Below are positions 23,751 through 42,043 of a stretch of DNA of 64,000 bases, piece after piece. A model generated the notes under the pieces. It saw only the letters and a list, made by a program, of their open reading frames with translations. It was not told the origin of the DNA and did no database searches. The position numbers were made by a program, and so were the translations under genes. This stretch comes from Roseomonas sp. (GTDB lineage: Bacteria; Pseudomonadota; Alphaproteobacteria; Acetobacterales; Acetobacteraceae). Position 1 is the stretch's first letter. Every line of letters begins with the position of its first letter. The stretch spans positions 1-64,000 of the forward strand of contig JADCFQ010000007.1 in the NCBI GenBank assembly GCA_020249435.1. The letters are read 5' to 3'.

Positions 23751-23756
23751 AAGGTG

Positions 23757-23895: not shown

Positions 23896-24552
23896 TTAAG
23901 AGCGTACCGGGCCGCCCTGCCAGATGACCTGGCCCAGCACTTCGAGGGTCGGGGTTTCGACTGCGGGCACTTCCTCAGCGTCATATTTCGGGTTGTCGGA
24001 TTTCAGGACCACGGACCCGTCCCGGCGCAGGTCAATGCGCTTGACCAGCAGGCCCCCGCCGATCGCCAGCACGTAGATGAAGCTGCCTTCGATGCGGCGC
24101 GCCGAGGTATCCACCAGCAGCAAATCTCCGTCCCGGATGGTGGGGTCCATGCTGTCGCCGGAGGCGGTCAGCAGGGCCAGGTTTTGGGGCGCTCGGCGCA
24201 GGGTCTGCTTCAAAAAACTCTCGGAAAATGCGATGAAGTCTACAAGGTGGTCGCTGCGGAGACCGCCATTGTTTCCCGCTGCCGCGCGGGCTTCCACCAG
24301 GGGCAAAAGCACGTAGCCGGGCGGGGTGGCGGGCGCCTCAGCGGGCGTTGAATCGCCCTGCATCGGGCCTTCCCCGGTGGCGAGCCATTCCAGCCGGACG
24401 CCCGTGGCGCGGGCCAGCGAAACCAGCGCTGAGGACGGCAATTCTCGGCCCCCGCGATAGCGGTTGAGCGTGCCGAGATACATCTCCGCCCGGCGCGCCA
24501 CGGCGCTTGGCCCGCCCGACTGCGCGATGGCTTGATCCAGCCGGAGCGACAT
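23896..24552 (-). CDS. Prophage repressor, HTH plus S24 peptidase domain
   Basis: A LexA/CI-like repressor. From the ATG at 24552 it has 218 residues: an N-terminal helix-turn-helix (RLDQAIAQSGGPSAVARRAEMYLGTLNRY) and a C-terminal S24 domain with catalytic serine in SGDSMDPTIRDGD and lysine in GGLLVKRIDL. This predicts RecA-stimulated self-cleavage and SOS induction, unlike the Clp-controlled repressor of phage Mu. A GTG at 24669 would add 39 residues, but that stretch is low-complexity and made of the operator-like repeats, so the shorter form is preferred. The SD before 24552 (GGAG) is unusually close. Confidence 0.85.
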   Translation of the reverse strand: MSLRLDQAIAQSGGPSAVARRAEMYLGTLNRYRGGRELPSSALVSLARATGVRLEWLATGEGPMQGDSTPAEAPATPPGYVLLPLVEARAAAGNNGGLRSDHLVDFIAFSESFLKQTLRRAPQNLALLTASGDSMDPTIRDGDLLLVDTSARRIEGSFIYVLAIGGGLLVKRIDLRRDGSVVLKSDNPKYDAEEVPAVETPTLEVLGQVIWQGGPVRS

Positions 24553-24581
24553 TTCTCCGGAGGGAGCATCCTCATTTTCGC

Positions 24582-24713
24582 TTCCACCTTCCGACCCGGA
24601 AGGTGGAACTGGGCTTCCACCTTCTTTCTTCGGTTCCACCTTCGGTTTTTCCTTAACTAAAACAGACACTTAAAGAGATTCCAGGCGAAATTCTCCAAAC
24701 GGAGAAGGTGGAA
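24582..24713. promoter_or_regulatory. Operator-like array of TTCCACCTT 9-mers
   Basis: Five exact copies of TTCCACCTT or its complement: 24582-24590, 24600-24608 (inverted), 24615-24623, 24634-24642 and 24705-24713 (inverted). The array lies between the repressor and the divergent Ner-like gene, and the last copy is 12 bp upstream of a TTGACG -35-like hexamer. This is where Mu-type operators O1-O3 lie, so these are the probable repressor or Ner binding sites. Confidence 0.7.
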
Positions 24714-24724
24714 CAAAAAAACGC

Positions 24725-24753
24725 TTGACGGCTAACTCCATTTGGATCAATCT
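24725..24753 (+). promoter_or_regulatory. Possible early promoter
   Basis: TTGACG at 24725-24730 is a good -35 hexamer. A weak -10 (CAATCT) follows after 17 bp. It faces the early operon and lies next to an operator-like 9-mer, as expected for a repressor-controlled early promoter. Confidence 0.4.
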
Positions 24754-24766
24754 GATTTTCAGGAAG

Positions 24767-25138
24767 ATGAAAACCGACCACCCAAAGGCACCCCTGTTGC
24801 GCGCTAAACCCATCACCCGAACTCCTCAAGATTGGCACGTGGAGGACATCAAAGCCGCCATCCGGAAAACCGGCATGACGCTTTCTGACCTCAGCCTTGC
24901 GGCCGGGTTTTCCGAGGGTGCAGCCACGCGCGCCCTGCTGACACCTTGGCCCCGGATGGAGGCCGCGATTGCTGCGCGCCTTGGCCGCGAGCCCCACGAA
25001 ATATGGCCCAGCCGATACTCGCCTGACGGGCGACCCATGGCTGGGCTGCATATCAGGCGCCGCAAAGACCTAGCGCCTGCCACCCCGCCCCGCAACGTCA
25101 GAAAAGAGAGAGCCAGTGAACAACGCGCCTATGCTTGA
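24767..25138 (+). CDS. Ner/Nlp-like DNA-binding regulator
   Basis: A 123-residue protein with an Nlp/Ner-type helix-turn-helix: DWHVEDIKAAIRKTGMTLSDLSLAAGF, then SEGAATRALLTPWPRMEAAIAARLGREPHEIWPSRY. In Mu, Ner turns down early and repressor transcription. The ATG at 24767 follows AGGAAG directly; an apparent earlier TTG start is really the -35 hexamer. The C-terminal 30 residues are basic. Its 3' end overlaps the ParB-like gene by 23 bp. Confidence 0.85.
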   Translation: MKTDHPKAPLLRAKPITRTPQDWHVEDIKAAIRKTGMTLSDLSLAAGFSEGAATRALLTPWPRMEAAIAARLGREPHEIWPSRYSPDGRPMAGLHIRRRKDLAPATPPRNVRKERASEQRAYA

Positions 25139-25937
25139 CCCCATTGAAATGATCCCGGTGGATCAAATTCATGTCGAGGACCGCCTGCGGACGGTCAACC
25201 CGGACCATGCCGCGCTGATCGCGGAGAGCTTCCGCACCAATGGCCAGATGACGCCGATTGAGGTGCGCCGGAATGACGCCGGCAAGTTTGTGCTGGTGGC
25301 GGGCGCGCATCGCCTTGCCGCTGCCCGGCTGGCTGAAATGGACCAGATCGCGGCCAGCATCATTGAAGCCGATGAAGACCAGGCGCGGCTGCGCGAGATT
25401 GACGAAAACCTATGCCGCCGCGACCTGACCGAGCTTGACCGCGCCACCTTCCTGGCCGAGCGCAAGGCGGTCTGGATCAGGCTCAATCCAGAAACCGCTG
25501 TATCTGGAAGGAAGAAATTAAAGACAAATTTGTCTTTAATTCCAACCTTCGCCGAAGATGCCGCCGAAAGGCTGGGGCTTTCCCCCCGATCAGTGGACCG
25601 CGCGATCCGCCGGAACAATGCGCTGGCCGATGATGTGAAGGGCATGCTGGCCCATTCCAAATGGGCCGATAATGGCAGCGTTCTGGATGGCCTGACCAAG
25701 CTGGACCATGCCAAGCAACGCAAAGCGGCTGAGGCCCTGACCCGCGAAGAAGGGCCAGCCCGCAACCTTGCCGCCGCCATTGCGGAATTCACCCCCCGCC
25801 CCAAGGGCGCCGCCGCCGCAGAAGCCTCGCAGGAATATGAACGGCTGATCAATTCCTGGCGGAAGGCCCGGCAGGCAGCCCGCAAGCGCTTTATCGATTT
25901 CCTGGTCGCCGAAGGCGAAATCGGGGGTGAGCGGTGA
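25116..25937 (+). CDS. ParB-like nuclease-domain protein
   Basis: A 273-residue protein. Residues about 8-95 form a ParB/Srx-type domain: IPVDQIHVEDRLRTVNPDHAALIAESF, then TPIEVRRND and VLVAGAHRLAAARL, which matches the GxHRxxA box. A KorB-like helical domain follows (DAAERLGLSPRSVDRAIRRNNAL), then a basic C-terminal helix. The family binds DNA and some members hydrolyse CTP or cut DNA. Similar genes occur in the early operon of Mu-like alphaproteobacterial phages; the role there is unknown to me. GTG start at 25116; ATG at 25131 is possible. Confidence 0.8.
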   Translation: MNNAPMLDPIEMIPVDQIHVEDRLRTVNPDHAALIAESFRTNGQMTPIEVRRNDAGKFVLVAGAHRLAAARLAEMDQIAASIIEADEDQARLREIDENLCRRDLTELDRATFLAERKAVWIRLNPETAVSGRKKLKTNLSLIPTFAEDAAERLGLSPRSVDRAIRRNNALADDVKGMLAHSKWADNGSVLDGLTKLDHAKQRKAAEALTREEGPARNLAAAIAEFTPRPKGAAAAEASQEYERLINSWRKARQAARKRFIDFLVAEGEIGGER

Positions 25938-26053
25938 TGGACGCGCGCCGCCTGCTGCGCGCCGCGCTGGGCGGCGCGGCCTTTGCCGGGTGCATCCTTG
26001 GCTTCTTCTGGTTCGGCACGCTGGCCTTCGTGGCCGCTGGCATCAAACCCTGA
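25937..26053 (+). CDS. Small membrane protein
   Basis: A 38-residue ORF, starting by TGATG overlap with the stop of the ParB-like gene. After a basic start (MDARRLLRAALG) it has one hydrophobic helix (FAGCILGFFWFGTLAFVAAG). It may insert in the inner membrane. The function is unknown; the overlap and clear hydrophobic segment support coding. Confidence 0.55.
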   Translation: MDARRLLRAALGGAAFAGCILGFFWFGTLAFVAAGIKP

Positions 26054-26062
26054 GGCTCGGCC

Positions 26063-26515
26063 ATGGTTCGCCACCCCGGACAGCCTGACCTTTTGGATTG
26101 GCAACCGCCTGAGGCGGTGAAGCGCTTCCCGGAAGAACAGGTGCGCGCCGCCAGCTTTGCCGCCCGCGTTTCCCGCGCGGTGGCCGTGGCGCTGGCCGAT
26201 GCGGATGTGGACCGCGAAACCATCGCCGCGCGCATGTCCACGTTCTTGGGTGAACGCGTTTCGCCCGCGATGCTGGATGCCTATGCCAGCCAGGCGCGCG
26301 AAGATCACCGGATCAGCGTGCCGCGGCTGATGGGCCTGCTGCATGCCACGCGCGACCGTCGGCTTTTGGAATTGCTCGCGGAGCCCATGGGCTGGGCGGT
26401 GATCGAACGCCGCCACCTGCCGCTGATCGAGGTCGCGGCCATCCGTGAACATGAAGATGAATTGCGCCGGCGGCGGGAATTCCTGATGCGGTCGGCCAGG
26501 AGCGGCGCATGTTGA
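26063..26515 (+). CDS. Unidentified early phage protein
   Basis: A 150-residue protein placed directly ahead of the transposase and overlapping it by 7 bp. It has a helical central part (RVSRAVAVALADADVDRETIAARMSTFLGERVSPAMLDAYASQ) that could be a helix-turn-helix-like fold, and ends with a charged helix. In Mu-like phages of this group a regulatory-like gene is often found between ner and A, but I cannot name the family. Confidence 0.65.
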   Translation: MVRHPGQPDLLDWQPPEAVKRFPEEQVRAASFAARVSRAVAVALADADVDRETIAARMSTFLGERVSPAMLDAYASQAREDHRISVPRLMGLLHATRDRRLLELLAEPMGWAVIERRHLPLIEVAAIREHEDELRRRREFLMRSARSGAC

Positions 26516-28503
26516 ACCCGGCGCAAACAGATCGCTGGTTCACGCTGGCTGAATTGGCCGCGCTTGACCTGCCGGGCATTCCGAACACGCGGCGCGGGCT
26601 GGCCATGCAGGCAGACCGCGAAGAATGGAACCATGAAGCCGCCGAAGGCCGGTTGTGGCGCCGCAGGCAGGGCCGTGGCGGCGGCATTGAATACTGGATT
26701 GGCGTGCTGCCCAGCTTCACGCAGGCGAAGCTGCTGGCCAAGGAAGCGGCGCAGAACCCCGCCCCCGCGCGCGATACCGCGCTGCGCCAATTGAGCGATG
26801 AGGCCGCGTGGCAGGGCTATGACCGCGCCGCTGATAAGCACAAGCAAAGTGCGGCGAAGCGCGTGGCCGCGCTGGATGCGATTGAGACGCTGGTGGCGCA
26901 GGGCAGAGCGCGCAGCGTTGCCATTATGGAAGTGGCCGCGACGCATGATGTTTCCCGCACCGCGATTTATGCCTGGGCGGCGCTGGTTGATGGCGTGCCG
27001 CGCGCGCATTGGCTGGCGCGGCTGGTGCCGCAATATGTGGGCGCGAAAGGCCCGCGCGCTGCCTGCGCGGATGATGCCTGGGAATGGTTGCGCGCGCGCT
27101 ATCTGCTGCCGAACCGCCCGACCTTCGAAGCCTGCTTCCGGGATTTGGAGCAGGTGGCCGTGCAAAAGGGCTGGCAATTGCCATCCGCCCGCACGCTGCG
27201 CCGGCGCATTGATGCGCTGCCGGCCACGGTGGTGGCGTGGCATCGCGAAGGCCCGGACGCGACAGACCGCATGTTCCCCGCGCAGCGGCGCGACAGATCA
27301 CACCTGCATGCGCTGCAATGGGTGAATGCTGACGGGCATAAATTCGATGTGTTTGTGAAGTGGCCAGATGGCACGGTGGCGCGGCCCATGGCGGTGTTCT
27401 TCCAGGATTTGTATTCCGGGAAGCTGCTGACCTGGCGCGTGGCGCAGGCCGAGACGGGCGACACCTTCCGCCTTGCCTTCAGTGATGTGGTGGAGCGCTA
27501 CGGCATCCCCGGCGCGGTGACGATTGATAACACGCTGGCCGCCGCGAATAAGACCATGAGCGGCGGGTTGAAGCGGCGCTTTCGCTTCAAAATTCGCGAA
27601 GAAGAACCGCTTGGCATTTTCGCCAGCCTTGGCGTGGCGGTGCATTGGGCGAAGCCGTTCAGTGGCCAGTCAAAACCGATTGAGCGCGCCTTCGGCGACC
27701 TTGCGCGCGACATCGCGCGGCACCCGGCCTTTGTCGGTGCCTGGACCGGCAATAAACCAACCGACAAGCCGCATGATTACGGCAAGAAATCCGTGCCGCT
27801 GGCGGAATTTCTGGCGGTGCTGGAACCGGCCATTGCCGAACATAACGCCCGGCCTGGTCGCAGCGCGTTGAATTGCCGTGGCCGGTCCTTCGATGACACT
27901 TTTGCCGAAAGCTACGCCACCGCGCCGATCACGCGCGCGACCGAAGCGCAGCGGCGCATCTTCTTGCTGGCGGCGGAAGAAGTGCGCGTGCGCCGTGATG
28001 GCACGATCCATCTGCTGGGTAATCGCTATCATGATGCGCGGCTGGTGGAGCTGCGGGGGCGGAATGTCGCGCTGCGGTTCGACCCAGACAAGCTGCATGC
28101 GCCGGTCCACGTTTATTTGGCGAATGGCGATTATTTCTGCACCGCTGAATGCTGGGCTGATCAGGGCTTTGGCGATACGGACGCCGCGCGCCGCACCGCG
28201 ACCGCCGTGCGCCAGCGCCGCCGTGGCCTGAAGCTGCTGGCCGATGCCGAAGCGCGCATCAGCGCCGAACAGCTTGCGCGCGATATCGCCGCCGCCCAGC
28301 GCGACATTCCAGACCCACCCGCCCCGCAAGTGGTGCGCCCGCTTTTCCGTGGCGCGGTGGCGCTGAAACCCAAACCAGAGACGGAGGAAGAAACTTCGGA
28401 AGCGCGGTCCGAAAGGCTGTTTGTGGCAGCGCGCGCCAGCATGCGGCAGGGCCAGGCGCCCGCGCATCTGCGCCTGCTGAACACTGACGATCCCGAGGCG
28501 TGA
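26509..28503 (+). CDS. MuA-type DDE transposase
   Basis: A 664-residue transposase, essentially the length of Mu A (663). The N-terminal Mu DNA-binding winged helix is seen in WFTLAELAALDLPGIPNTRRGLAMQADREEW. The core has D275 in WVNADGHKFD, D340 in VTIDNTLAA and E392 in SKPIERAFG, close to Mu D269/D336/E392. The C-terminal region (about 490-664) should carry MuB and ClpX contacts. It catalyses strand transfer for integration and replicative transposition. All three catalytic residues are present, so it is probably active. Confidence 0.95.
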   Translation: MLNPAQTDRWFTLAELAALDLPGIPNTRRGLAMQADREEWNHEAAEGRLWRRRQGRGGGIEYWIGVLPSFTQAKLLAKEAAQNPAPARDTALRQLSDEAAWQGYDRAADKHKQSAAKRVAALDAIETLVAQGRARSVAIMEVAATHDVSRTAIYAWAALVDGVPRAHWLARLVPQYVGAKGPRAACADDAWEWLRARYLLPNRPTFEACFRDLEQVAVQKGWQLPSARTLRRRIDALPATVVAWHREGPDATDRMFPAQRRDRSHLHALQWVNADGHKFDVFVKWPDGTVARPMAVFFQDLYSGKLLTWRVAQAETGDTFRLAFSDVVERYGIPGAVTIDNTLAAANKTMSGGLKRRFRFKIREEEPLGIFASLGVAVHWAKPFSGQSKPIERAFGDLARDIARHPAFVGAWTGNKPTDKPHDYGKKSVPLAEFLAVLEPAIAEHNARPGRSALNCRGRSFDDTFAESYATAPITRATEAQRRIFLLAAEEVRVRRDGTIHLLGNRYHDARLVELRGRNVALRFDPDKLHAPVHVYLANGDYFCTAECWADQGFGDTDAARRTATAVRQRRRGLKLLADAEARISAEQLARDIAAAQRDIPDPPAPQVVRPLFRGAVALKPKPETEEETSEARSERLFVAARASMRQGQAPAHLRLLNTDDPEA

Positions 28504-28534
28504 TCCTCGGTTCTCCCCAAACCAAGGAATGATT

Positions 28535-29509
28535 ATGAGCGACCAAATTATTGACGTTGACGACATGGATGCGCTGCGCCAGCGCATTCGCAGCGCCATG
28601 GCCGAACGCGGCCTGGCGATGACTGACCTGGCGCGCCAGGTGGGCATTCCCTACGGCACCTTCAGCAGCTGGATGGGCAATACCTATCGCGGGCGCCAGA
28701 CGCCGATTGGTGAGAAGGCAAGCCAATGGCTGGATGGCCAGCAAGCCGCCGATCGCACCCGCGCGCTGGCGCCGAAAGCGCCGGGCTTCCTGCCGACGCC
28801 GACCGCAGAGGCCATTCTGGCCACGCTGGAGCACGCGCAATTCATGCCGGAATTCGTGGTGATTACGGGCAGCCCCGGTGTGGGCAAAACCAGCGCTGGC
28901 CGCGCTTATGCCCAGCGCAACACCAATGTCTGGCTGATCACGGCTGAGCCCACCATGTCCACCCCGCGCGCGGTGCTGGAATATTTGGCGGAGGCGATTG
29001 GTGTGCCTTCGCGCGGCATGTCCACCCAGCAGCTTTCGCGCAGCCTTACCCGGCGCATGACAGGCAGCCAGGGGCTGATCCTGATTGACGAGGCACAACA
29101 CTTAACCAGCCAGACGCTGGATCAACTGCGCATGTTCTACGATTTGGCCGATGTTGGCATGGCGCTGATGGGCAACGAAGCCGTGCATGCGCGGCTTGAA
29201 GGTGGCGCACGTGCGGCGCAATTCGCGCAGCTATTTTCACGCGTTGGCATGCGGCTTGCCCGCCCGCGCGCGATGAAGGGCGATATCGAGCAATTGATGG
29301 ATGCCTGGGATATCGCCGGCAAGGAAGAACGCGCGATGCTGGTGCAGATTGCCAAGCGCCCCGGCGCGCTGCGCAACCTGACCAAGGTGCTGCGCATGGC
29401 CCACATGTTGGCCAGTGCCGATGGCGCGGAAGCGGTGGCGGAGACGCATATCAGGATGGCGTGGGAACGGCTTTCTGCCGGCGCGCCGCTGATGGCTGAG
29501 GCGGCGTGA
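28535..29509 (+). CDS. MuB-type AAA+ transposition ATPase
   Basis: A 324-residue ATPase. An N-terminal helix-turn-helix (LAMTDLARQVGIPYGTFSSWMGNTY) precedes the AAA+ core with Walker A GSPGVGKTS (about 112-120) and Walker B LILIDEAQHL. MuB binds target DNA as an ATP-dependent filament, activates MuA and gives target immunity. The second ATG (28535) is six bases past AAGGA and was chosen over 28529. It follows the transposase by 31 bp. Confidence 0.93.
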   Translation: MSDQIIDVDDMDALRQRIRSAMAERGLAMTDLARQVGIPYGTFSSWMGNTYRGRQTPIGEKASQWLDGQQAADRTRALAPKAPGFLPTPTAEAILATLEHAQFMPEFVVITGSPGVGKTSAGRAYAQRNTNVWLITAEPTMSTPRAVLEYLAEAIGVPSRGMSTQQLSRSLTRRMTGSQGLILIDEAQHLTSQTLDQLRMFYDLADVGMALMGNEAVHARLEGGARAAQFAQLFSRVGMRLARPRAMKGDIEQLMDAWDIAGKEERAMLVQIAKRPGALRNLTKVLRMAHMLASADGAEAVAETHIRMAWERLSAGAPLMAEAA

Positions 29510-29895
29510 TGCAGCCCGGCGCCTTGGCTGATCTGCGCACCCAGGTGGACCTGCTGAGCCGCCGGGTGCGCGCGCTTGAGAATAACACGCGCGAATTGGC
29601 AGCGCCGGTGCCTGCCGGTTCCATTCATGATGTGCTGCATGCCGTGAGCAATGCCTTCGGCGTGCCGGTGCTGACCATCACTTCCGGCCGGCGCGACCGC
29701 GATGTTGTGCTGGCGCGGCAAGTGGCGATGGCGCTGTGCATCCAGTGCCTGAACATGTCCGTGCAGCGCGTGGCCCGCGCCTTCGGCAAAGACCATGCGA
29801 CGGTGCGCCACGCCTTCAATTCGGTGTGGGCGCGCGAAGCTTGGGATGCGCCGCTGCGTGAGCGGATCAGAAAAGTGCGGGCGGTGTTCGCATGA
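29509..29895 (+). CDS. DnaA domain IV-like DNA-binding protein
   Basis: A 128-residue protein. After a short coiled coil (RTQVDLLSRRVRALENN), residues about 40-128 align by eye with the DNA-binding domain IV of DnaA: VSNAFGVPVLTITSGRRDRDVVLARQVAMAL, then RVARAFGKDHATVRHAF, which keeps the DnaA signature (GxDHxTV) with alanine for the first threonine. No AAA+ domain is present. It may bind DnaA-box-like sites and compete with, or recruit, the host initiator. It overlaps muB by TGATG. Confidence 0.8.
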   Translation: MQPGALADLRTQVDLLSRRVRALENNTRELAAPVPAGSIHDVLHAVSNAFGVPVLTITSGRRDRDVVLARQVAMALCIQCLNMSVQRVARAFGKDHATVRHAFNSVWAREAWDAPLRERIRKVRAVFA

Positions 29896-29940
29896 GCGCC
29901 GCGAATTCCATCCCTAAATCCCCTTTGAAGGAATCACCCC

Positions 29941-30459
29941 ATGCCCAAAAATAAGCGCGCGGCGGAAACCGCGACGCCACCCAAGGATCGCGATGAGGCG
30001 GAAAGGTATCTGGCGCGCATCGGCGAAATCCAGCGCGATGCCGCGTTGAACAAGGCCGTGCTCGCGGAAGCCATCGCGCGCGTGACGGCTGAGATGGAAG
30101 AAGCCAGCGCCAAGCTGACGGAAGAAAATGACCGGCTATTTCGCGGGTTGCAATTGTGGGCGGAAGCAAACCGCCACGCCCTGACGGATGGCGGCAAAAC
30201 CAAGACCGTGCGGCTGGGCAATGGCACCATCGCGTGGCGCCTGGCGCCGCCTTCCGTGCAGATCAAGGGGCAGGAAGCGGTGCTGGCCTACCTGATGCAA
30301 AAAAATGGCGAGGAATTCCTGCGCACCAAAGTGGAAATCAACCGCGAGGCGATGCTGGCGAACGCCGAAGAGGCATCGAAAATTCCCGGCGTGACGATCA
30401 AAAGCGCGGGCGAAAGTTTTGTCATTGAACCCGTGGGCCAGAAGGAAATGGCGGCATGA
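29941..30459 (+). CDS. gam: Gam-like host-nuclease inhibitor
   Basis: A 172-residue Mu Gam-family protein. The N-terminal half is a long helical region (RDEAERYLARIGEIQRDAALNKAVLAEAIARVTAEMEEASAKL) and the C-terminal half has GKTKTVRLGNGTIAWRLAPPSV and EFLRTKVEINREAMLAN. Mu Gam binds double-stranded DNA ends and shields them from exonucleases; it is a relative of bacterial Ku. AAGGAATCACCCC provides the ribosome site. Position after the transposition genes matches Mu. Confidence 0.92.
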   Translation: MPKNKRAAETATPPKDRDEAERYLARIGEIQRDAALNKAVLAEAIARVTAEMEEASAKLTEENDRLFRGLQLWAEANRHALTDGGKTKTVRLGNGTIAWRLAPPSVQIKGQEAVLAYLMQKNGEEFLRTKVEINREAMLANAEEASKIPGVTIKSAGESFVIEPVGQKEMAA

Positions 30460-30668
30460 GCAACAACACCCAACCGCTTGACCAGGTGGTGAAGCGCATT
30501 GTCGCCGCCGCTTTTGATGCTGGTGTGGCCGCCGCCACGCGCCCGCGCGCGGAACGTGAAGCGCAGCGCCTGGATCAGGCGGGCTACGCCGCCATCATGA
30601 TCTGCGCCCAGGCGGAAGCGGCGCGGGTGAACACAGGCAACGCAGGAGCAGAAAATGAAAAAGTATGA
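30456..30668 (+). CDS. Small hypothetical phage protein
   Basis: A 70-residue helical, alanine-rich protein beginning by ATGA overlap with the gam stop. No motif is recognised. It ends 14 bp inside the next gene. Tight packing in the early operon is the main evidence that it is translated. Confidence 0.55.
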   Translation: MSNNTQPLDQVVKRIVAAAFDAGVAAATRPRAEREAQRLDQAGYAAIMICAQAEAARVNTGNAGAENEKV

Positions 30669-31047
30669 AATCCAGGACGCTGCTACGGTGTTGGCAATCT
30701 GCTGTTACGATGCAGCAAAGCAGGCAGGGTGGCACCATGATCAGCGGACCGGCCTACTGCGGACCTGCCAGCAAAACCACGAACTGTTCCCGGTCCGCTT
30801 GATGCTGATCGTGTCGGAATTGGCCGAGGCCATGGAAGGGCACCGCAAGTCCCTGAAGGACGATCATCTGCCACACCGCGATATGGCAGAGGTTGAACTT
30901 GCCGATGCGGTGATCCGTATCTTCGATCTGGCCGGCGCGATGCATTACGACATCGGCGGCGCCATTGCCGAAAAGCTGGCGTACAACGCGCAGCGCGCGG
31001 ACCATAAGCCAGAAGCCCGCGCCGCTGCTGGCGGGAAGGCTTACTGA
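30655..31047 (+). CDS. MazG-like nucleotide pyrophosphohydrolase
   Basis: A 130-residue all-alpha NTP-pyrophosphatase-like protein. The acidic metal motifs are LIVSELAEAMEGHRK and EVELADAVIRIFDLAG, the EExxE...ExxD pattern of the MazG/dUTPase superfamily. Phage members are thought to change nucleotide or ppGpp pools. An AGGAG lies 8 bp before the ATG, inside the previous gene. Codon choice in its first half is less GC-extreme than in neighbours, a hint of separate origin. It is distinct from the host mazG at 4321. Confidence 0.82.
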   Translation: MKKYEIQDAATVLAICCYDAAKQAGWHHDQRTGLLRTCQQNHELFPVRLMLIVSELAEAMEGHRKSLKDDHLPHRDMAEVELADAVIRIFDLAGAMHYDIGGAIAEKLAYNAQRADHKPEARAAAGGKAY

Positions 31048-31050
31048 GCC

Positions 31051-31422
31051 ATGATCCGCCACCTGAAAATCGCCGCCGCGCTGGTCCTGGCGCTGGCGGC
31101 ACCCGCCGCCGCTGAGGCGGTGCGGGTGATTGATGGCGACACCATCGTGCATCGCGGCCAGACCATCCGGATCATGGGGCTGGATGCGCCGGAAAAGCAT
31201 CACCGCTGCTTGGAAGAAAAGGTACTGGCCGAACGCGCACGCGCGCGGCTGGAGGAGCTGCTGGCCGATGGCTTTCGTGTTGAAGCGCATGGGCGAGACC
31301 GCTATGGCCGCGTGCTGGCCGTGGTGTTTGATGCGCGCGGCATGAATGTCGCGAATGTGCTGATCGTGGAAGGGCTCGCGCGCCGCTACCATGGCCGTGG
31401 CCCGCGCGAGCTTTGGTGCTGA
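31051..31422 (+). CDS. Secreted staphylococcal-nuclease-like protein
   Basis: A 123-residue SNase-fold nuclease with an N-terminal signal peptide (MIRHLKIAAALVLALAAPAAAEA). Catalytic-type residues are visible: D in VIDGDTIV, R in RIMGLDAPE with its D and E, and the final arginine in HGRDRYGRVLA. It should cut DNA or RNA in the periplasm. In a phage early operon this suggests a moron or a defence against incoming DNA. Confidence 0.88.
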   Translation: MIRHLKIAAALVLALAAPAAAEAVRVIDGDTIVHRGQTIRIMGLDAPEKHHRCLEEKVLAERARARLEELLADGFRVEAHGRDRYGRVLAVVFDARGMNVANVLIVEGLARRYHGRGPRELWC

Positions 31423-31425
31423 ACC

Positions 31426-31992
31426 ATGCAGCGCGCCCTTTTCCCCAAGGATGGCCTGCCGCGGCATCTGCGTGCTCACTTCGATGATTTCTGGGCGGCG
31501 TATCCGCCGCGCAAACCAAACCCGCGCGCGCTGGCTGAAGTGGCCTATGCGCGTGCTGTGAAGGAAGGCGCATCGCCTTTTGATCTGGCACACGCCGCTG
31601 CGCGCTTTGCCGATGAAGTCCGCGCGCAGAAGATTGACGCGGCCTTCGTGGTGCATGCCGCGACCTTCCTGCGCCAGCGGCGGTATCTGGATTACCTAAC
31701 GGTGCCGGCGCCAGAAGCCGCGCCGCAGGAGATAAATGAAGACCATTTCCTGCGCGCCCCGCTGCGTGGGCGGATCGGTGACACCGAATTTCGGCGCTGG
31801 ATCATGCCGCTTCTGTTGGGTCTACATGATCCGGGCGAGAAAGCCATTATTGCGGCACCTTCGGCCTTTCATCGTGATTGGGTGCGCGGCCAATTCGGCG
31901 CCGAAATCCGTGAGGCACTGCGGGTGCGGGTGCTGGAAATCATTATCGCTCCGCCTGTACGCAGAAGACACACCGAAGGCGCCGCACCATGA
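31426..31992 (+). CDS. Replication-type protein with DnaA domain I-like C-terminus
   Basis: A 188-residue protein in two parts. Residues about 15-90 resemble the C-terminal module of phage replication proteins (FDDFWAAYPPRKPNPRALAEVAYARAV, then FVVHAATFLRQRRYLDY). Residues about 105-175 match DnaA domain I by eye: GDTEFRRWIMPL and APSAFHRDWVRGQFGAEIREAL. Domain I of DnaA binds DnaB helicase and regulators such as DiaA. The protein may recruit replication factors to the transposition complex. Compare the domain IV-like protein at 29509. Confidence 0.75.
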   Translation: MQRALFPKDGLPRHLRAHFDDFWAAYPPRKPNPRALAEVAYARAVKEGASPFDLAHAAARFADEVRAQKIDAAFVVHAATFLRQRRYLDYLTVPAPEAAPQEINEDHFLRAPLRGRIGDTEFRRWIMPLLLGLHDPGEKAIIAAPSAFHRDWVRGQFGAEIREALRVRVLEIIIAPPVRRRHTEGAAP

Positions 31993-32213
31993 TGCCCCGC
32001 ACCGTTGACCGCCAATGGCAGGAATTGGTGGCCCAGGCCGATGCGCAAGACATTCGCGAATTGGCGATGCTGGCGCTTGAAATGCGCACCGCGCAGCAGC
32101 GCTACTTTGCAGACCGTCAGCATTTGCACCTGGTGCAGGCCAAAAGCGCAGAGGCGGACTTTGACCGTCACGTGAAGCGCCTGCGCGCGCCTCAGCGGGG
32201 GCTTGGCCTATGA
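31989..32213 (+). CDS. Small hypothetical phage protein
   Basis: A 74-residue, largely helical and charged protein (IRELAMLALEMRTAQQRYFADRQHLHLV). It starts by ATGA overlap with the previous gene and ends 4 bp inside gemA. No family is recognised. Confidence 0.6.
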   Translation: MMPRTVDRQWQELVAQADAQDIRELAMLALEMRTAQQRYFADRQHLHLVQAKSAEADFDRHVKRLRAPQRGLGL

Positions 32214-32641
32214 ACCAGGAACGCGCGCGCATGATCGCCAAAATCCATCTGGCCAAGAAGCAGCTGGCGCTGGCGGAAGAAAGCTACCGCGCCATTCTGG
32301 AACGCATCACGGGCCTGGACAGTGCGGGCAAGATGCGGGTGGACCAATTGGATGCGGTGCTGCGTGAATTCGCCCGGCTGGGCTGGCGCCCGAAGCCTGC
32401 CGCCAAGCGCAGCGCGCAACCGCAAATCCGCATGATCCACGCCGTGTGGGCCGATATCTGCCGCCTGCAAGGCCGGGGCGATGAAGCGGCGCTGCGCGCC
32501 TTTGTGCGCCGCCAGACGAAGACGGAAGAACATCCGGATGGGGTGGACAGCGCCGAGTTCTTGAACGCCGCCATGGCGAACCGCGTGCTGGAAGGGCTGA
32601 AGGCCTGGCGCGCGCGGTTGCAGCGGGACGCCGCCGCATGA
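32210..32641 (+). CDS. GemA/gp16-family (DUF1018) phage protein
   Basis: A 143-residue protein of the GemA/gp16 family. The diagnostic N-terminus is ARMIAKIHLAKKQLALAEESYRAILERITG and the middle has IRMIHAVWADICRLQG. In Mu, GemA affects host gyrase activity and gene expression. It is one of the most constant early genes of Mu-like phages. It starts by ATGA overlap. Confidence 0.9.
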   Translation: MNQERARMIAKIHLAKKQLALAEESYRAILERITGLDSAGKMRVDQLDAVLREFARLGWRPKPAAKRSAQPQIRMIHAVWADICRLQGRGDEAALRAFVRRQTKTEEHPDGVDSAEFLNAAMANRVLEGLKAWRARLQRDAAA

Positions 32642-33048
32642 ACGCGCCGCGCCCCAACACGCGCCTGGATAACCTGCTGCAGGAATTCAAGCGGCTTGCA
32701 GGACAGGGGCTGCCCATGCCGCGCGTAACGGATATCGCGCGCGTGGTCGGCGTTCCCTACAACGATATCTATCGGCTGCTCGATCTGGGCCAGGACCGCT
32801 GCATCTGGACACTGGAACGTGATGGCACAAGCATCATCGCGATCCGCGGTACCCAGGGCGATTGGAAGCTTGACTGTTCCATGCGGCGGAATGCGGTTTC
32901 CGCCCATTCCATGCGCCGCTACCGCGATAAAACGACAGAGGCGCTTTCACGCAAATGCCTGCGCTGCCGCGAAGTGTTCCTTTCCGCCCATATCGGCAAC
33001 CGCCTATGCGTTGGGTGTAACGCTTACGCTGCGCAGGCCGCGCCATGA
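32638..33048 (+). CDS. HTH protein with C-terminal C4 zinc-finger-like motif
   Basis: A 136-residue protein I cannot assign. Residues about 28-50 (MPRVTDIARVVGVPYNDIYRLLDLG) look like a helix-turn-helix. The C-terminus has CLRCREVFLSAHIGNRLCVGC, a CxxC-x13-CxxC pattern expected to bind zinc. It probably binds nucleic acid. The position just upstream of the Mor-like gene is compatible with a middle-gene regulator. Confidence 0.65.
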   Translation: MNAPRPNTRLDNLLQEFKRLAGQGLPMPRVTDIARVVGVPYNDIYRLLDLGQDRCIWTLERDGTSIIAIRGTQGDWKLDCSMRRNAVSAHSMRRYRDKTTEALSRKCLRCREVFLSAHIGNRLCVGCNAYAAQAAP

Positions 33049-33161
33049 GCTACCGCGCGTGGCGCCACCGGCAAAGGCTGCGGCAATGGCGCCGGGTGCT
33101 GGCCCGGCTGCCAGCGGCTGAGCGGCTGCTGGCAGCGCTCAGCCTGAAGGTGTGGCAGTGA
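33045..33161 (+). CDS. Tiny Arg/Trp-rich peptide ORF
   Basis: A 38-residue ORF that starts by ATGA overlap with the previous stop. It is very basic, with WRHRQRLRQWRRVLARL at its core followed by an amphipathic helix. It may be a real small protein or only a chance frame in GC-rich DNA; its stop touches the end of the antisense secreted-protein gene. Confidence 0.4.
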   Translation: MSYRAWRHRQRLRQWRRVLARLPAAERLLAALSLKVWQ

Positions 33162-33163
33162 TG

Positions 33164-33667
33164 TCAGGGCTGCGGGACGAATTGGAACTGCACTTCGCCG
33201 CCGCGAAAGCCATCGCGTATCCGCATCCGTGTCTGGCCGACCTGCGGGGTGGCGTTTTTGGGCGCATTGCCAATGCCGAACATGCCAAGCACTGCATTGC
33301 GGCGATCTTGCTCATTGATGTTCGGTTCAAGGGCTTCCAAGACCATGTGCGTCATGCCGATGACCTGCACCATTGGGGTGTTGCCGGTGTAGGGAATGGC
33401 CACTTCGCGCAGGGCTTCCGGGTTATTGGAAGCGCGCAGCTTCAAGGGCAGGAAGCCAGTCTGCGCATCGCATTCGATGGTGTTGCCCATGGCGCAGATG
33501 ACCGAGGGGATATTGTAGCGCAGCCGCTGCTTCTTCGCGGCATCGTTAAAGGAATCCGTGAAGGTGTCGGTGGTGCGCCCCCACACGGGTGGCGCGGGCT
33601 GCGCGGTGGCAAAGACCGGCAGCAACAGCGTAAGGATCAGCAGGCACGAAAGGAAAGCGCGGCGCAT
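33164..33667 (-). CDS. Secreted protein on opposite strand (probable moron)
   Basis: A 167-residue exported protein, the only leftward gene in the prophage besides the repressor. It has a strong signal peptide (RRAFLSCLLILTLLLPVFATAQ) and GGAGG seven bases before the ATG at 33667. The mature part has two cysteines (VICAMGNTIEC) that could form a disulphide and no recognised domain. An independent, reverse-oriented, secreted gene inside a prophage is typical of morons expressed in lysogens. The start 23 codons upstream lacks this SD and is rejected. Confidence 0.78.
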   Translation of the reverse strand: MRRAFLSCLLILTLLLPVFATAQPAPPVWGRTTDTFTDSFNDAAKKQRLRYNIPSVICAMGNTIECDAQTGFLPLKLRASNNPEALREVAIPYTGNTPMVQVIGMTHMVLEALEPNINEQDRRNAVLGMFGIGNAPKNATPQVGQTRMRIRDGFRGGEVQFQFVPQP

Positions 33668-33713
33668 CGTTGTTCCTCCGTTGAAACGCCACCCTTTATC
33701 ACCCAACCGGCAC

Positions 33714-33725
33714 CTTGCGCGCAAG
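33714..33725. promoter_or_regulatory. 12-bp perfect palindrome between divergent genes
   Basis: CTTGCGCGCAAG is a perfect palindrome in the 68-bp gap between the leftward secreted protein and the Mor-like gene. It could be an operator for either promoter. Confidence 0.45.
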
Positions 33726-33735
33726 CATTTCCGCA

Positions 33736-34101
33736 ATGATCAAATGCTCGCTCCCCGCGCCGGCTGAAATCCATTGGCTGACCAACATCATCGGCGCCGA
33801 TGCAGCGCTCAGCATGATTGAAGCGCATGGCGGGACGCGGGTTTATGTGCCCAAAGATATCAATCAGAATTCCGCCGCGCGGCTGGCCTTGCCGCTGCCG
33901 GAAGCGCGCCGCCTGGGGGAAGCCTTCGGCGGCGAACACATTCCGGTGCCGATCGCGCGCGCCTGGCGCGTGCGCATGTATCGCGCGGCGGGCATGACGT
34001 ATCCGGCCATCGCGCGCAAGCTTGGCATCACGGAACGCGCGGTTGGGCGCATCCTGACTGATGCTGGCCTGACCACATCGCAAGGCGACTTCTTCCGGTA
34101 A
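33736..34101 (+). CDS. Mor-family transcription activator
   Basis: A 121-residue protein of the Mu Mor/C family. The dimerisation half contains LTNIIGADAALSMIEAHGGTRVYVPKD and LGEAFGGEHIPVP. The helix-turn-helix half is RVRMYRAAGMTYPAIARKLGITERAVGRIL. In Mu, Mor turns on the middle promoter and C the late promoters. Only one such gene is visible here, so it may do both. The ATG at 33736 has no clear SD. A palindrome-bearing 57-bp gap separates it from the lysis genes. Confidence 0.88.
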   Translation: MIKCSLPAPAEIHWLTNIIGADAALSMIEAHGGTRVYVPKDINQNSAARLALPLPEARRLGEAFGGEHIPVPIARAWRVRMYRAAGMTYPAIARKLGITERAVGRILTDAGLTTSQGDFFR

Positions 34102-34105
34102 GCCG

Positions 34106-34150
34106 TGCGGACATGCGTCCGCATGACCTGATCGCCGCGCGCGCGCGATG
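34106..34150. promoter_or_regulatory. Composite palindrome + CG-run element, copy 1
   Basis: TGCGGAC-N4-GTCCGCA at 34106-34123, 12 bp of spacer, then CGCGCGCGCGCGATG at 34136-34150. It lies directly upstream of the endolysin/late operon. The same composite occurs inverted at 42834-42879 ahead of the protease/capsid genes. It is a candidate late-promoter control site. Confidence 0.65.
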
Positions 34151-34158
34151 GTGCGGCC

Positions 34159-34575
34159 ATGACAAACGACGCCATTCCCGACCTGCTTCTGCCACGCGAC
34201 CATGAACGCCTGATCGGCGTGCATCCTGATCTGGTGCAGGTGGTTCAGGTGGCGCGGCAATTCACGCCCTTCATTGTGCTGGAAGGTCTGCGCACGCCGG
34301 CGCGGCAGGCAAAGCTTGTCGCCGAAGGTGCATCCCGCACGCTGAATAGCCGCCATTTGACTGGCCATGCGGTGGACCTTGGCTATTGGCTGGATGATGG
34401 CGATGGCATCCCGGAAAATGGCGAAGTGCGCTGGGATTGGCCACTTTATCACAAGCAGGCGCGCTGGCTGAAAGATGTCGCCGCCGATCTTCATGTGCCG
34501 ATCATCTGGGGTGGTGATTGGAAGGGCTTCCCCGATGGCCCGCACTTCGAATTGGACCGGCGGCATTACCCATGA
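34159..34575 (+). CDS. Endolysin, M15-type peptidase
   Basis: A 138-residue D-Ala-D-Ala carboxypeptidase/L-alanyl-D-glutamate peptidase-like enzyme. Zinc-site motifs are SRHLTGHAVDLGYW (H and D) and DGPHFEL (H), and the substrate-side arginine lies in EGLRTPARQ. There is no signal peptide, so it needs a holin. It is the first gene of the late operon, the place of lys in Mu. It degrades peptidoglycan peptide bonds at lysis. Confidence 0.9.
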   Translation: MTNDAIPDLLLPRDHERLIGVHPDLVQVVQVARQFTPFIVLEGLRTPARQAKLVAEGASRTLNSRHLTGHAVDLGYWLDDGDGIPENGEVRWDWPLYHKQARWLKDVAADLHVPIIWGGDWKGFPDGPHFELDRRHYP

Positions 34576-34820
34576 CGGAAGCCGCCATCCCACCGAAATC
34601 ATCGCGCAGCTTCAGCCGTGCCCTCGTGGTCGGTAATTGCCTTGCCGCCTGGTGCGCAGTATTCCTGTGCATCTACGCCAGCGAAATCAGCGCGGGCATT
34701 GTGGTGCCGGCAGCGCTGACGCTGATCGCCTGGCTGGTCGGCGGCTACATGGGCATTGGCGCGCTGGATTTCCGCACCGCCACAGCCACCGTGCAACGCG
34801 CGGGCGGTGCTGAAAAATGA
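34572..34820 (+). CDS. Holin-like small membrane protein
   Basis: An 82-residue protein with two hydrophobic segments (VVGNCLAAWCAVFLCIYA and GIVVPAALTLIAWLVGGYMG) and a charged N-terminus. The ATG overlaps the endolysin stop (ATGA), and Rz follows. Location and topology fit a class II holin or an antiholin; sequence alone does not prove it. Confidence 0.75.
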   Translation: MTEAAIPPKSSRSFSRALVVGNCLAAWCAVFLCIYASEISAGIVVPAALTLIAWLVGGYMGIGALDFRTATATVQRAGGAEK

Positions 34821-35221
34821 TCGGCACCATCCTTGGCCGGCTGCTGACGCCGGCCTTGCCGTATTTGGCTGGCGCCTTGCTGGTTGTGGTGCTTGGCCTG
34901 GCCACCGCCTGGCGCGTGGAAGCCTGGGGCCGCGCGGGCGCGGAAGAAACCCTGGCCGAAACCCGTGCGGAATTGACCGCGGCGCAGCAAGCACTCGCGG
35001 ATCGCGCGCAGGTGATCAGCGCGCTGGAACGCCAAGCCGCCGCCACCGCCGCGACGCAAGAACGCATCGAACCCATCCGAAGGACCATCCATGCCGCGAA
35101 CCGCACTTCGGCCTGTGTGGCCAGCCCTGCTGTTGCTGCTGGCCTTGATCGGCTGCGCGCCAGCCAGCAGCCCAGCCCCCGGCCTGACGCTGGCGCCAAG
35201 CCTGCTGGCCTGCCGCGATGA
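34817..35221 (+). CDS. Rz-like inner-membrane spanin
   Basis: A 134-residue protein with one N-terminal transmembrane helix (ALPYLAGALLVVVLGLATAW) and a long periplasmic coiled coil (GAEETLAETRAELTAAQQALADRAQVISALERQAA). The architecture, overlap with the holin-like gene and the nested Rz1 lipoprotein identify it as the i-spanin, which fuses inner and outer membranes at lysis. Confidence 0.88.
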   Translation: MIGTILGRLLTPALPYLAGALLVVVLGLATAWRVEAWGRAGAEETLAETRAELTAAQQALADRAQVISALERQAAATAATQERIEPIRRTIHAANRTSACVASPAVAAGLDRLRASQQPSPRPDAGAKPAGLPR

Positions 35222-35351
35222 ACCGCCGGTGCCCGCCATGACATCCGATGCTGATCTGATGGCGTTTTTGTTGGACGTGATCGAAGCCGGTGAGGATTGC
35301 CGCACGCGCCTGGCCCGCGTGCGTGAGATTTTCGAAGCGAGGAATAAGTGA
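35091..35351 (+). CDS. Rz1-like outer-membrane spanin lipoprotein
   Basis: An 86-residue lipoprotein in another frame, starting inside the Rz gene and running 130 bp past it. The signal has lipobox LIGC with the lipidated cysteine at position 22, followed by a Pro/Ser-rich stretch. The C-terminal half (ADLMAFLLDVIEAGEDCRTRLARVREIFE) is longer than usual for Rz1. It is the outer-membrane partner of Rz. Confidence 0.85.
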   Translation: MPRTALRPVWPALLLLLALIGCAPASSPAPGLTLAPSLLACRDEPPVPAMTSDADLMAFLLDVIEAGEDCRTRLARVREIFEARNK

Positions 35352-35488
35352 TGCCTGATGCCGTGGATTACGCCCAGGAATTGGAAGAACGCCACCGCGC
35401 CCAGGCACTGGCGCGTATCCGCGCGCGGCTACCCGCGCAGGCACCAAAGCCACCGCAACCCGTGAAGGAAGCGGAGGATGAGGCGTGA
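35351..35488 (+). CDS. Short TraR/DksA-like N-terminal protein
   Basis: A 45-residue ORF (MPDAVDYAQELEERHRAQ, then ALARIRARLP). Mu-like phages often carry a TraR/DksA zinc-finger protein here that starts with a very similar AQExEExHRAxAL helix, but the C4 finger is absent; the tail is Pro/Glu-rich. It may be a shortened descendant. The start is next to the Rz1 stop and the end overlaps the next gene by TGATG. Confidence 0.5.
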   Translation: MPDAVDYAQELEERHRAQALARIRARLPAQAPKPPQPVKEAEDEA

Positions 35489-35847
35489 TGGTAAGTTTGG
35501 AATGGCGCGACATGGCCGCCATTGTCACCACCGCCGCGATTGTCGGCGGTATTGTTTTGGCGTTTTTGCGCTTCAAGCTGGCGGGGGATTTCGCCGCGCG
35601 TGGCGATCTGGCGAAGGTGGTGCAGCGGGTTGATGAGGTGGAAGAACGCCTCGCGAAAATGCCGTCTCATAATGATCTGCGCGCGCTACAGGACCGGGTG
35701 AATGATCTGGATCGCGCGGTCGCCGTGGTGGCGGAACGGGTTGGCGGGGTGCATGAAATCCTGAAGCGCGTTGAATACCAGGTGCAGCTTTTGGTCCGCC
35801 ATCAATTGGCCGATGGCGCGCCGGATAGCACGAGAGGAAAGCGCTGA
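35488..35847 (+). CDS. DUF2730-like membrane/coiled-coil protein (Mu gp25-like)
   Basis: A 119-residue protein with one N-terminal membrane helix (DMAAIVTTAAIVGGIVLAFLRF) and a coiled coil (LAKVVQRVDEVEERLAKMP, ALQDRVNDLDRAVAVVAERVGGV). This is the layout of the DUF2730 proteins between the lysis genes and gp26/gp27 in Mu-like phages. The role is unknown. Confidence 0.8.
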   Translation: MVSLEWRDMAAIVTTAAIVGGIVLAFLRFKLAGDFAARGDLAKVVQRVDEVEERLAKMPSHNDLRALQDRVNDLDRAVAVVAERVGGVHEILKRVEYQVQLLVRHQLADGAPDSTRGKR

Positions 35848-36149
35848 TGCCTGATTTCGCCGCGCTGCTGGCCGAAGACCGGCGCCTGATCATCCTGCGC
35901 GCCTTGGCGGAAGATCATGACTACGCGCTGAATGACACGGTGCTGAAACGCGCACTGGCGTCGCTTGGTCATGAAGTGTCGCGCGATGTGCTGCGCGGTG
36001 ATCTGACCTGGCTGGCGGATCAGCGGCTGATCACGGTCCGCAAATTGGATGATGGCGTGCTCTGGGTGGCGCGCGCCACCGAAGATGGCGTGGATGTCGC
36101 GCGTGGCAGGCCGCACCCGGGTGTCGCGCGCCCGCTTCCGGGGCATTGA
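35847..36149 (+). CDS. gp26-like winged-helix protein
   Basis: A 100-residue protein resembling the VpaChn25_0724/gp26 family of Mu-like phages. RRLIILRALAEDHDYALNDTVLKRALASLG and DLTWLADQRLITVRKLDDGVLWVARATEDGVDVA give a winged-helix pattern like small ArsR-type regulators. It precedes the small terminase. Its function is not known. Confidence 0.82.
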   Translation: MPDFAALLAEDRRLIILRALAEDHDYALNDTVLKRALASLGHEVSRDVLRGDLTWLADQRLITVRKLDDGVLWVARATEDGVDVARGRPHPGVARPLPGH

Positions 36150-36152
36150 GAT

Positions 36153-36722
36153 ATGGCGCGGCCTTCCACCATCGCGCGCCTGCCGGGCGAAATCCGCGAA
36201 GCCATCGGGCGGCTGCGCGACCAGGGCCGCACGCTGGATGAAATTCTGACGCATCTGCAAGGCATGGAAGTGACCGTCAGCCGCAGCGCCCTGGGCCGCC
36301 ATGTGCAGCAGATGGACAAAGTTGGCGAAAGGCTGCGCCGGTCCCGCGCGATATCTGAAGCGCTGGTGCGCCAGCTTGGCGATGCGCCGGAAAGCCAAAC
36401 CGCGCGGCTGAATATCGAAATGATGCATTCCTTCCTGTTCGACTTCCTGGCATCCGCCGAAGAAGGCGCGGAGGAAGGCAGCGAAGCCGCGCTGGCCCAT
36501 GTGCGAGACCCGAAATCCGTGGCGCTGATGGCCGAAGCCGTGCAGCGCCTGACCACGGCCAGCCGGCAGAATGCGGAATTCGTGGCGCGCGTGGAAGATC
36601 GCGCGGCCGCGAAGGCCAAGGCCGGCGCTGCGCGCGCCGCCGAAGCCGTCGCGCGCGAGAAGGGGCTGAGCGCCGATACGGTGCGCGCGATCAAGGCCAG
36701 CATCCTGGGGGTGGCGGAATGA
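36153..36722 (+). CDS. Small terminase subunit (Mu gp27-like, DUF3486)
   Basis: A 189-residue protein of the DUF3486 family. It begins RPSTIARLPGEIREAIGRLRDQGRTLDEILTHLQ, a helix-turn-helix-like part, then a long helical C-terminal region. In Mu-like phages gp27 acts with the gp28 terminase in DNA packaging. The gene order 27-28-29 is preserved here. Confidence 0.88.
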   Translation: MARPSTIARLPGEIREAIGRLRDQGRTLDEILTHLQGMEVTVSRSALGRHVQQMDKVGERLRRSRAISEALVRQLGDAPESQTARLNIEMMHSFLFDFLASAEEGAEEGSEAALAHVRDPKSVALMAEAVQRLTTASRQNAEFVARVEDRAAAKAKAGAARAAEAVAREKGLSADTVRAIKASILGVAE

Positions 36723-42041: not shown

Positions 42042-42043
42042 CC

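Follow-up and report, generated by a model that had tools for sequence, protein, structure and literature searches.

Phage Mu has TG...CA ends and is flanked by a 5-bp target duplication. Its replication requires PriA and DnaT, and DnaB and DnaC join in replisome assembly (PMC3325207). In the initiator DnaA of E. coli, Glu21 and Phe46 of domain I bind DnaB (PMC5448010, PMC5742627). Here, we describe a Mu-like prophage of a Roseomonas-type bacterium that carries two modules of DnaA on separate early genes, the products of which we name DnaAC (29509 protein) and RepN (31426 protein). These modules may help the phage commandeer the DNA-copying machinery of its host. The window referred to below is the whole stretch of DNA that was analysed (64,000 nucleotides).

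A Mu-like prophage with two DnaA modules

The prophage (Table 1) is preceded by the target sequence GCCAG, and its right end (...CTACA), located 849 bp past the window at 64849 of the extended contig, is followed by GCCAG again, a 5-bp duplication flanking 41,163 bp. Together with TG...CA ends and the presence of MuA, MuB, Gam and GemA, this identifies a Mu-like transposable phage, as had been proposed in the original prediction along with the early position of both genes. One small ORF separates RepN from GemA. Debris of a host dnaA or misassembly can be discarded as the origin of the two genes, since an intact, full-length host dnaA is present elsewhere and other contigs carry both genes as well, with purifying selection acting on them. 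The N-terminus of MuB gave an HTH-like match (HTH_26) slightly below its cut-off.

Table 1. Features of the prophage, with positions in the window.
Feature	Position	Strand	Details
Mu-like prophage	23687..64000 in window	+	total 41,163 bp; left end TGTTCC at 23687
MuA transposase	26509..28503	+	DDE_2, PF02914 E=1.9e-57
MuB target-selection ATPase	28529..29509	+	PF09077 E=8.3e-21; AAA_22 E=5e-19
DnaAC (DnaA domain IV protein)	29509..29895	+	128 aa; heptad-repeat stretch, then DnaA_C helix-turn-helix
Mu Gam-like DNA end-binding protein	29941..30459	+	PF07352 E=8.5e-34
RepN	31426..31992	+	188 aa; FWxxYP module ~1-92, DnaA domain I ~109-175
GemA (Mu gp16)	32210..32641	+	PF06252 E=6.8e-27
Mor-like transcription activator	33715..34101	+	phrog_836 E=5.1e-21; closes early block

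DnaAC was originally predicted to be a DnaA DNA-binding domain, and this holds: it matches PF08299 (Bac_DnaA_C) over profile positions 2-69 of 69 (E=3e-19; score 69.3 bits, cut-off 31.5), and domain IV of E. coli DnaA (1j1v) at E=1.6e-7 by phmmer and at E=4.1e-25 with a profile (A6). Profile-profile comparison with ten host DnaAs (hhalign) gave a probability of 99.4, to domain IV only. It is not a full DnaA initiator (TIGR00362, 66.7 bits against a cut-off of 343.9), and neither DnaAC nor RepN matched an AAA+ family at E<=1 in a Pfam profile search, again as predicted. The start ATG of DnaAC and the MuB stop overlap by one base, as they do in nine of the ten relatives listed, the exception being L069, where MuB ends 539 bp earlier. 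DnaAC has a heptad-repeat stretch at residues ~9-30 and may be a coiled-coil dimer. Against this, the pattern reaches significance in the window protein and in that of L082, and does not in those of L072 and L073. The gene is under purifying selection (median dN/dS 0.46; 55/55 pairs).

Residues D433, H434 and T436, which we take to read the DnaA box, are kept in this DnaAC, as is R399. Conservation is high over 29 domain IV sequences: R407 is found in all 29, R399 in 23, D433 and T436 in 26 each and H434 in 24. This phage and its clade have Ala in place of T435 and lack one loop residue. The box-reading role of R399 and T435 is taken from PMC5742627, according to which the E. coli substitution T435M impairs box binding; DnaAC may therefore read another site.

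RepN was predicted to end in a DnaA domain I-like segment. That segment stands (residues 112-166 match PF11638, DnaA_N, with E=3.7e-9 and 36.6 bits, the cut-off being 24.6; hhalign probability 96.5), with a match to 2e0g of only E=0.022 in a single-sequence PDB search and of E=5.8e-6 by profile, while a second module at the N-terminus had been overlooked. The first ~100 residues correspond to the module of the phrog_270 replication initiation proteins (E=1e-14), the match starting at RepN residue 19 and covering profile positions 179-273 of 383, so that the phrog_270 part ahead of the FWxxYP module is absent. At E<=1, the Pfam listing for RepN contains DnaA_N alone, with no match to DnaT or PriC, and the TIGR00362 score (15 bits, cut-off 343.9) sets it apart from full DnaA initiators.

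Aligned to E. coli DnaA domain I, RepN has equivalents of Glu21 and Phe46 at E121 and F148, the presence of which makes helicase recruitment by RepN plausible. In all 11 rows of an alignment (A4) the Phe is invariant and the Glu21 position is E or D. Two further loci, L082 and L083, have Ile in place of the Phe and a DnaA_N match under the Pfam cut-off, which counts against an adaptor role. The self-association residue Trp6 of E. coli is without equivalent, the only Trp residues of RepN being at 23, 125 and 152. RepN is under purifying selection (median dN/dS 0.33; 54/55 pairs), and its most constrained part is the FWxxYP module (median 0.215 vs. 0.384 for DnaA_N).

Distribution of the two genes and of DnaA boxes

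Of 80 Mu-like loci, 24 have a domain IV gene no more than about 1.6 kb downstream of MuB, among them 22 of the 55 alphaproteobacterial loci and none of the 19 beta-, gamma- and other loci. RepN is rarer (7/80), and domain IV occurs without it in 17 of the 24 loci, two of which end before RepN's place (L073, L074) and two before any GemA is seen (L092, L108). All seven RepN loci have domain IV, the co-occurrence expected from the original prediction, yet on a MuB tree they amount to two to three independent pairs, so that the association cannot reach significance; the Fisher p of 0.0015 ignores relatedness. On the same tree, domain IV presence requires nine gains or losses. Both genes are present, for example, in L072, from the environmental strain Neoroseomonas eburnea LMG 31228. 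Conversely, the RcapMu-like phage G266 has RepN beside GemA and no domain IV. An obligate two-gene system is thereby excluded, and the joint action of both proteins that had been proposed is not established. RepN directly adjoins GemA in G169:C15 and G266, and is adjacent to it or one ORF away in two transposase groups. In the G380 prophages, the domain IV gene is placed after GemA instead of MuB.

Neither a domain I nor an FWxxYP match was found in stretches of 13-19 kb each from RcapMu, StopSmel, Aussie, POA1180, Mwe-Yong1, YPCBV-1 and Mu, which were rejected as carriers; the same stretches have no domain IV, bar a weak Aussie ORF (E=0.005) upstream of ParB. Alignment coverage in tblastn had pointed to proteins of Gordonia phage Asapag and of a Moorella phage as domain I carriers; they were dropped, because the FWxxYP module alone matched the local models. 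An enriched domain I model was trained on L072, L082, L083 and L088, and matches in those loci, being circular, were left out of the counts.

The early regions of the 24 domain IV-positive loci contain no consensus DnaA box (2.9 expected), and those of the other 56 loci contain 12 (9.1 expected), a weak shortage (one-sided binomial p 0.03-0.04, relatedness ignored). The 41-kb prophage itself has a single site with at most one mismatch to TTATCCACA, against a mean of 3.35 over 20 shuffles, which excludes for this phage an origin built from DnaA boxes. Two perfect TTATCCACA sites are present in L172, the stretches fetched from a G407 contig that holds a relative of this prophage. On the host side, the draft assembly (62 contigs, 99.23% complete) gave no match to DnaT or PriC, for both of which the E. 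coli controls were positive, and it encodes DciA.

Possible roles in replicative transposition

We infer both functions, and every binding partner named here, from the domains, positions, recurrence and selection of the two genes. In the reading that we prefer, at a probability of about 0.42 for its two parts jointly, the two dismantled DnaA modules would serve the replicative transposition of the prophage. RepN would most likely be a replisome adaptor: its FWxxYP module would engage either the fork that transposition produces or a partner located there, and its DnaA domain I would recruit the host helicase to the transposition intermediate through contact with the DnaB N-terminal domain. RepN would in this way supply the recruiting step done in E. 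coli Mu by PriA, DnaT and DnaC, a step which it would fill in a host with DciA and no match to DnaT or PriC. DnaAC would be a sequence-specific DNA binder, most likely acting in trans on non-phage DNA, where it may either sit on host DnaA boxes, dampening host initiation as a DnaA lacking the ATPase, or guide MuB. Counting against this reading, no RepN is seen in the 17 domain IV loci mentioned above or in the RcapMu stretch, and PriA acting with DciA might be enough without it; the missing Trp6 equivalent and, for DnaAC, T435A with the loop deletion also weigh against it. The observation behind the original prediction is thus confirmed and its interpretation partly supported: a bypass of host DnaA was the wrong frame, since Mu depends on PriA and DnaT, and its replisome assembly involves DnaB and DnaC (PMC3325207), so that the restart primosome would be what is bypassed.

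It is unlikely that DnaAC is an ordinary transcription regulator with a DnaA HTH fold and its own operator, RepN an unrelated replication protein and their co-occurrence mosaicism of the early operon. RcapMu has annotated or weakly matched HTH regulator genes at the same place, and the nine gains or losses, the frequent absence of RepN and the altered target hinted at by T435A and the loop deletion all fit; for TnpA-REP, the authors likewise suggest that the Bac_DnaA_C domain may not read DnaA boxes or may have evolved a new target (PMC6006769). However, the place after MuB is maintained across distant lineages and most domain IV copies retain the DnaA-box residues. That same position, with the MuB stop-start overlap in the clade, could also be expected of a MuB partner; DnaAC would then be a sequence-specific transposition component that steers target choice toward regions to which DnaA binds, oriC for example, or away from them. 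We consider this very unlikely: the one insertion site mapped lies away from any DnaA box, with ~3.4 kb between the right end and the closest box-like site of the examined flanks, and the G380 prophages have the gene after GemA.

Interference with the host is also unlikely. Domain I of RepN would then be a decoy occupying either DnaB or a partner of the DiaA type, with DnaAC as a dominant-negative on oriC boxes; both would stop initiation in the host, and the phage itself would replicate through PriA-dependent restart. The lack of AAA+ in both proteins is as in a dominant-negative, consensus boxes are absent from the early regions of loci with domain IV, and binding of the prophage protein YfdR to DnaA domain I depends on Phe46 and inhibits that of DnaB and DiaA (PMC5448010). 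Yet a decoy has no need of the FWxxYP replication-protein module, RepN's most constrained part, and T435A may weaken box binding. A wider version of our preferred reading is quite doubtful: in alphaproteobacterial transposable phages generally, RepN would replace the PriA-DnaT-DnaC route, a dimeric DnaAC made with MuB would occupy host boxes, suppressing initiation or steering targets, and boxes would have been lost from the phage early region. DnaA-derived helicase recruitment would then be used in replicative transposition and not at an origin.

RepN, with an initiator module and the DnaB-contact domain of DnaA, is a direct, testable candidate for the step from strand transfer to replication. 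In the open-access literature, where absence is not proof, we found no description of this step for Mu-like phages in hosts without DnaT or PriC, nor of a domain IV gene after MuB; recurrent as it is, this gene marks a component of alphaproteobacterial transposable phages.

Comparison with known systems

The early region has the same kinds of genes as that of Mu (MuA, MuB, Gam, GemA, Mor), whereas Mu gave a match to neither DnaA module over its first 13,257 bp. Each phage module significantly matches its domain in E. coli and alphaproteobacterial DnaA, including the equivalents of Glu21/Phe46 and of R399/R407/D433/T436. Unlike in DnaA, they are two polypeptides, which lack an AAA+ domain III and a Trp6 equivalent and have Ala for T435 in the clade. 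RepN has the FWxxYP module in common with the phrog_270 family and similar initiators (lactococcal BK5-T, Gordonia Yvonnetastic; tblastn), but lacks the part preceding it, which in lambda O-type initiators is the DNA-binding domain, and has DnaA domain I instead. DnaAC resembles the short, stand-alone DnaA_C proteins of NCBIfam PRK06030 (NF004688, E=1.3e-8), a family annotated as hypothetical only, although at 35.0 bits it falls far under the cut-off of 136. E. coli YfdR is a prophage gene product that acts at the contact surface of DnaA domain I and DnaB, as RepN would; it binds domain I and is not itself described as a copy of it (PMC5448010). Finally, TnpA-REP proteins (HUH) of subclass 2.1 have a C-terminal Bac_DnaA_C domain, i.e., like DnaAC, a DnaA domain IV-type HTH in a transposase-related protein, for which the authors suggest replication fork targeting; there the domain is fused to the HUH nuclease, whereas DnaAC is encoded by a separate gene after MuB (PMC6006769).

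The prophage and its early genes

The Mu-like prophage is 41,163 bp long; its ends are TG...CA and it is flanked by a GCCAG duplication. Its early block encodes, among others and in this order, an HTH protein, a ParB-like and a CII-like protein, MuA, MuB, DnaAC (a DnaA domain IV protein) and Gam. After Gam come two small ORFs, then the genes for a staphylococcal-nuclease-like protein and for RepN (an FWxxYP module joined to DnaA domain I), another small ORF, the GemA gene, an ORF whose product carries a zinc-finger-like motif, and finally the Mor gene. The host resembles Roseomonas/Neoroseomonas: in the MuB search described below (best 80 of 347 relatives), the closest named loci were from Roseomonas MAGs, Neoroseomonas eburnea and Neoroseomonas alba. 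A full-length dnaA is present separately in this host.

Several neighboring features were recorded along the way. The nuclease-like protein, also found in relatives, has an N-terminus that looks by eye like a signal peptide, and a secreted-looking nuclease inside an early operon is odd. Relatives of the MazG-like ORF occur in contigs L003 and L009, and none was detected in L001, L002, L004, L005 or L008. By eye, a CxxC...CxxC motif similar to that ending the ORF after GemA lies near the C-terminus of two other domain IV proteins (L086, L110). The repeated motifs inside the left phage end are possible operators or transposase sites.

Coordinates of the features discussed (window, or locus where indicated)
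Sequence	Positions	Strand	Feature
Window	23687 to 849 bp past the right edge		Mu-like prophage
Window	23761-23832		AAAAAT(T)GGGTTTT motif, three times, with GGGAT motifs just ahead
Window	29509-29895	+	DnaAC
Window	30655-31047		MazG-like ORF (PF12643, E=0.042, under cut-off)
Window	31051-31422	+	Staphylococcal-nuclease-like protein (PF00565, E=8.8e-12)
Window	31426-31992	+	RepN
Window	32638-33048		ORF after GemA ending in CxxC...CxxC zinc-finger-like motif
L086	1239-2036		Domain IV protein
L110	10068-11288		Domain IV protein
L121, Rhodospirillaceae Mu-like phage	11512-12807		432-aa protein with domain IV and a MarR-like stretch (PF12802, E=1e-5, slightly below cut-off)
L050, human-faecal phage contig	7041-8351		DnaA-sized ORF, 437 aa, matching domains I and IV
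L049, human-faecal phage contig	10137-11378		414-aa ORF, domain IV match, AAA+-like by eye

Domain content of DnaAC and RepN

The second half of DnaAC matched DnaA domain IV in every test applied. Its N-terminal ~30 residues carry a leucine/valine heptad equalled by 1 of 2000 shuffles, as does the domain IV protein of the RepN-bearing relative L082; the heptad was not significant in L072 (220/2000) or L073 (185/2000). In E. coli numbering, DnaAC retains R399, R407, Q408, D433, H434 and T436, with Ala at T435 and a loop preceding the recognition helix that is one residue short; the L071 copy additionally has Arg at H434. The E. coli T435M variant is described in PMC5742627 as defective in box binding. 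We compared 29 domain IV sequences, several of them near-copies, drawn from 24 Mu-like loci, the window, two loci of the class sample and two non-Mu Bradyrhizobium phages: at position T435, 18 have Thr, six have Ser and five have Ala.

RepN residues 1-92 correspond to the FWxxYP module found in replication-initiation proteins of phages (match to phrog_270, E=1e-14) and residues 109-175 to DnaA domain I, where E121 and F148 align with E. coli Glu21 and Phe46. The FWxxYP module is under stronger constraint than domain I (median dN/dS 0.215 over 45 pairs against 0.384 over 39 pairs).

Occurrence in related phages

Nine IMG/VR contigs were retrieved through similarity to the DnaAC or RepN gene, only eight of them distinct because L006 repeats L001 (2600 bases compared). 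Each gene is present wherever a contig spans its place; L003 and L007 stop ahead of RepN and L006 starts within DnaAC. For named genomes we used MuB as a handle independent of both genes, which gave 564 pattern matches, 347 relatives and a best 80 that were retained, with taxon labels taken from record titles. Calls were made with local models at E<1e-3 (two for domain IV, one including rows from the window's clade), leaving a gammaproteobacterial MAG (L089, E=2e-3) out of the count. Domain IV was found in 24 of these best 80 loci: 22 of 55 from Alphaproteobacteria, two of six unassigned MAGs and 0 of 19 beta/gamma/other. Dropping seven loci with <3 kb after MuB gives 22/51 and 0/18 for Alphaproteobacteria and beta/gamma/other. 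All seven of the 24 that were rechecked (L072, L073, L082, L086, L088, L102, L121) exceeded the Pfam cut-off. RepN occurs in seven of the best 80, and each of these also has domain IV; four belong to the window's lineage, two are Roseococcus-type and one is Roseospira. For four of the seven the DnaA_N half was run through Pfam: L072 and L088 were above the cut-off and L082 (E=0.017) and L083 (E=0.00056) under it. A MuB tree with 74 rows calls for nine changes in domain IV, five of them forced by supported branches, and for three in RepN. Contigs L073 and L074 (Neoroseomonas alba HJA6) end ~3 kb after MuB inside similar Mu-like prophages, possibly an assembly break within near-identical copies.

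In the class sample, nine of 385 genomes had a MuB match (12 loci). Five of the 12 carry domain IV, and two of the seven without it lie on contigs that stop ~0.8 and 2.2 kb after MuB; in the pair from genome G380, domain IV is placed after GemA rather than MuB. Among the matches listed for this sample, just two genomes besides its own had both RepN halves: G169, with two copies, and G266. GemA is nearby in each. Upstream of RepN, G266 encodes a Mu-type transposase, a TniB/AAA ATPase and DUF3164, an RcapMu-like arrangement in which no domain IV match was present. The G169 contigs have a DUF3164 relative, and no transposase was found up to the contig end. A domain IV protein also stands alone in two Bradyrhizobium phage records (L043, L044), where the stretches shown name no transposase; L043 has a DUF1376 gene ~1.1 kb downstream.

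Possible roles in replication

Consensus DnaA boxes (TTWTNCACA) are absent from the early regions of the 24 domain IV-positive loci (0 observed, 2.9 expected), against 12 observed and 9.1 expected in the other 56, truncated loci included. Sites within one mismatch of TTATCCACA number nine (12.2 expected) and 46 (31.0 expected), respectively. This shortage (one-sided binomial p 0.036 for the consensus and 0.031 for ≤1 mismatch, relatedness ignored) argues against a phage origin there, and hints that DnaAC may act on DNA other than the phage early region.

The original prediction had the domain I and domain IV proteins acting together. Joint action is possible, with no more support than separate action; the association between the two genes comes from few independent events. 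We found no description of stand-alone DnaA domains in Mu-like phages among the open-access papers searched.

The host, searched for DnaT, PriC and DciA, gave no match to DnaT or PriC, with E. coli positive in both controls; DciA is present. The joining in RepN of a replication module to the domain by which DnaA contacts DnaB, in a host without a DnaT or PriC match, is most simply read as a putative DnaB recruiter: RepN would bring DnaB to the transposition product. For Mu itself, as described in PMC3325207, PriA and DnaT are essential for replication, and replisome assembly takes in DnaT, DnaB and DnaC.
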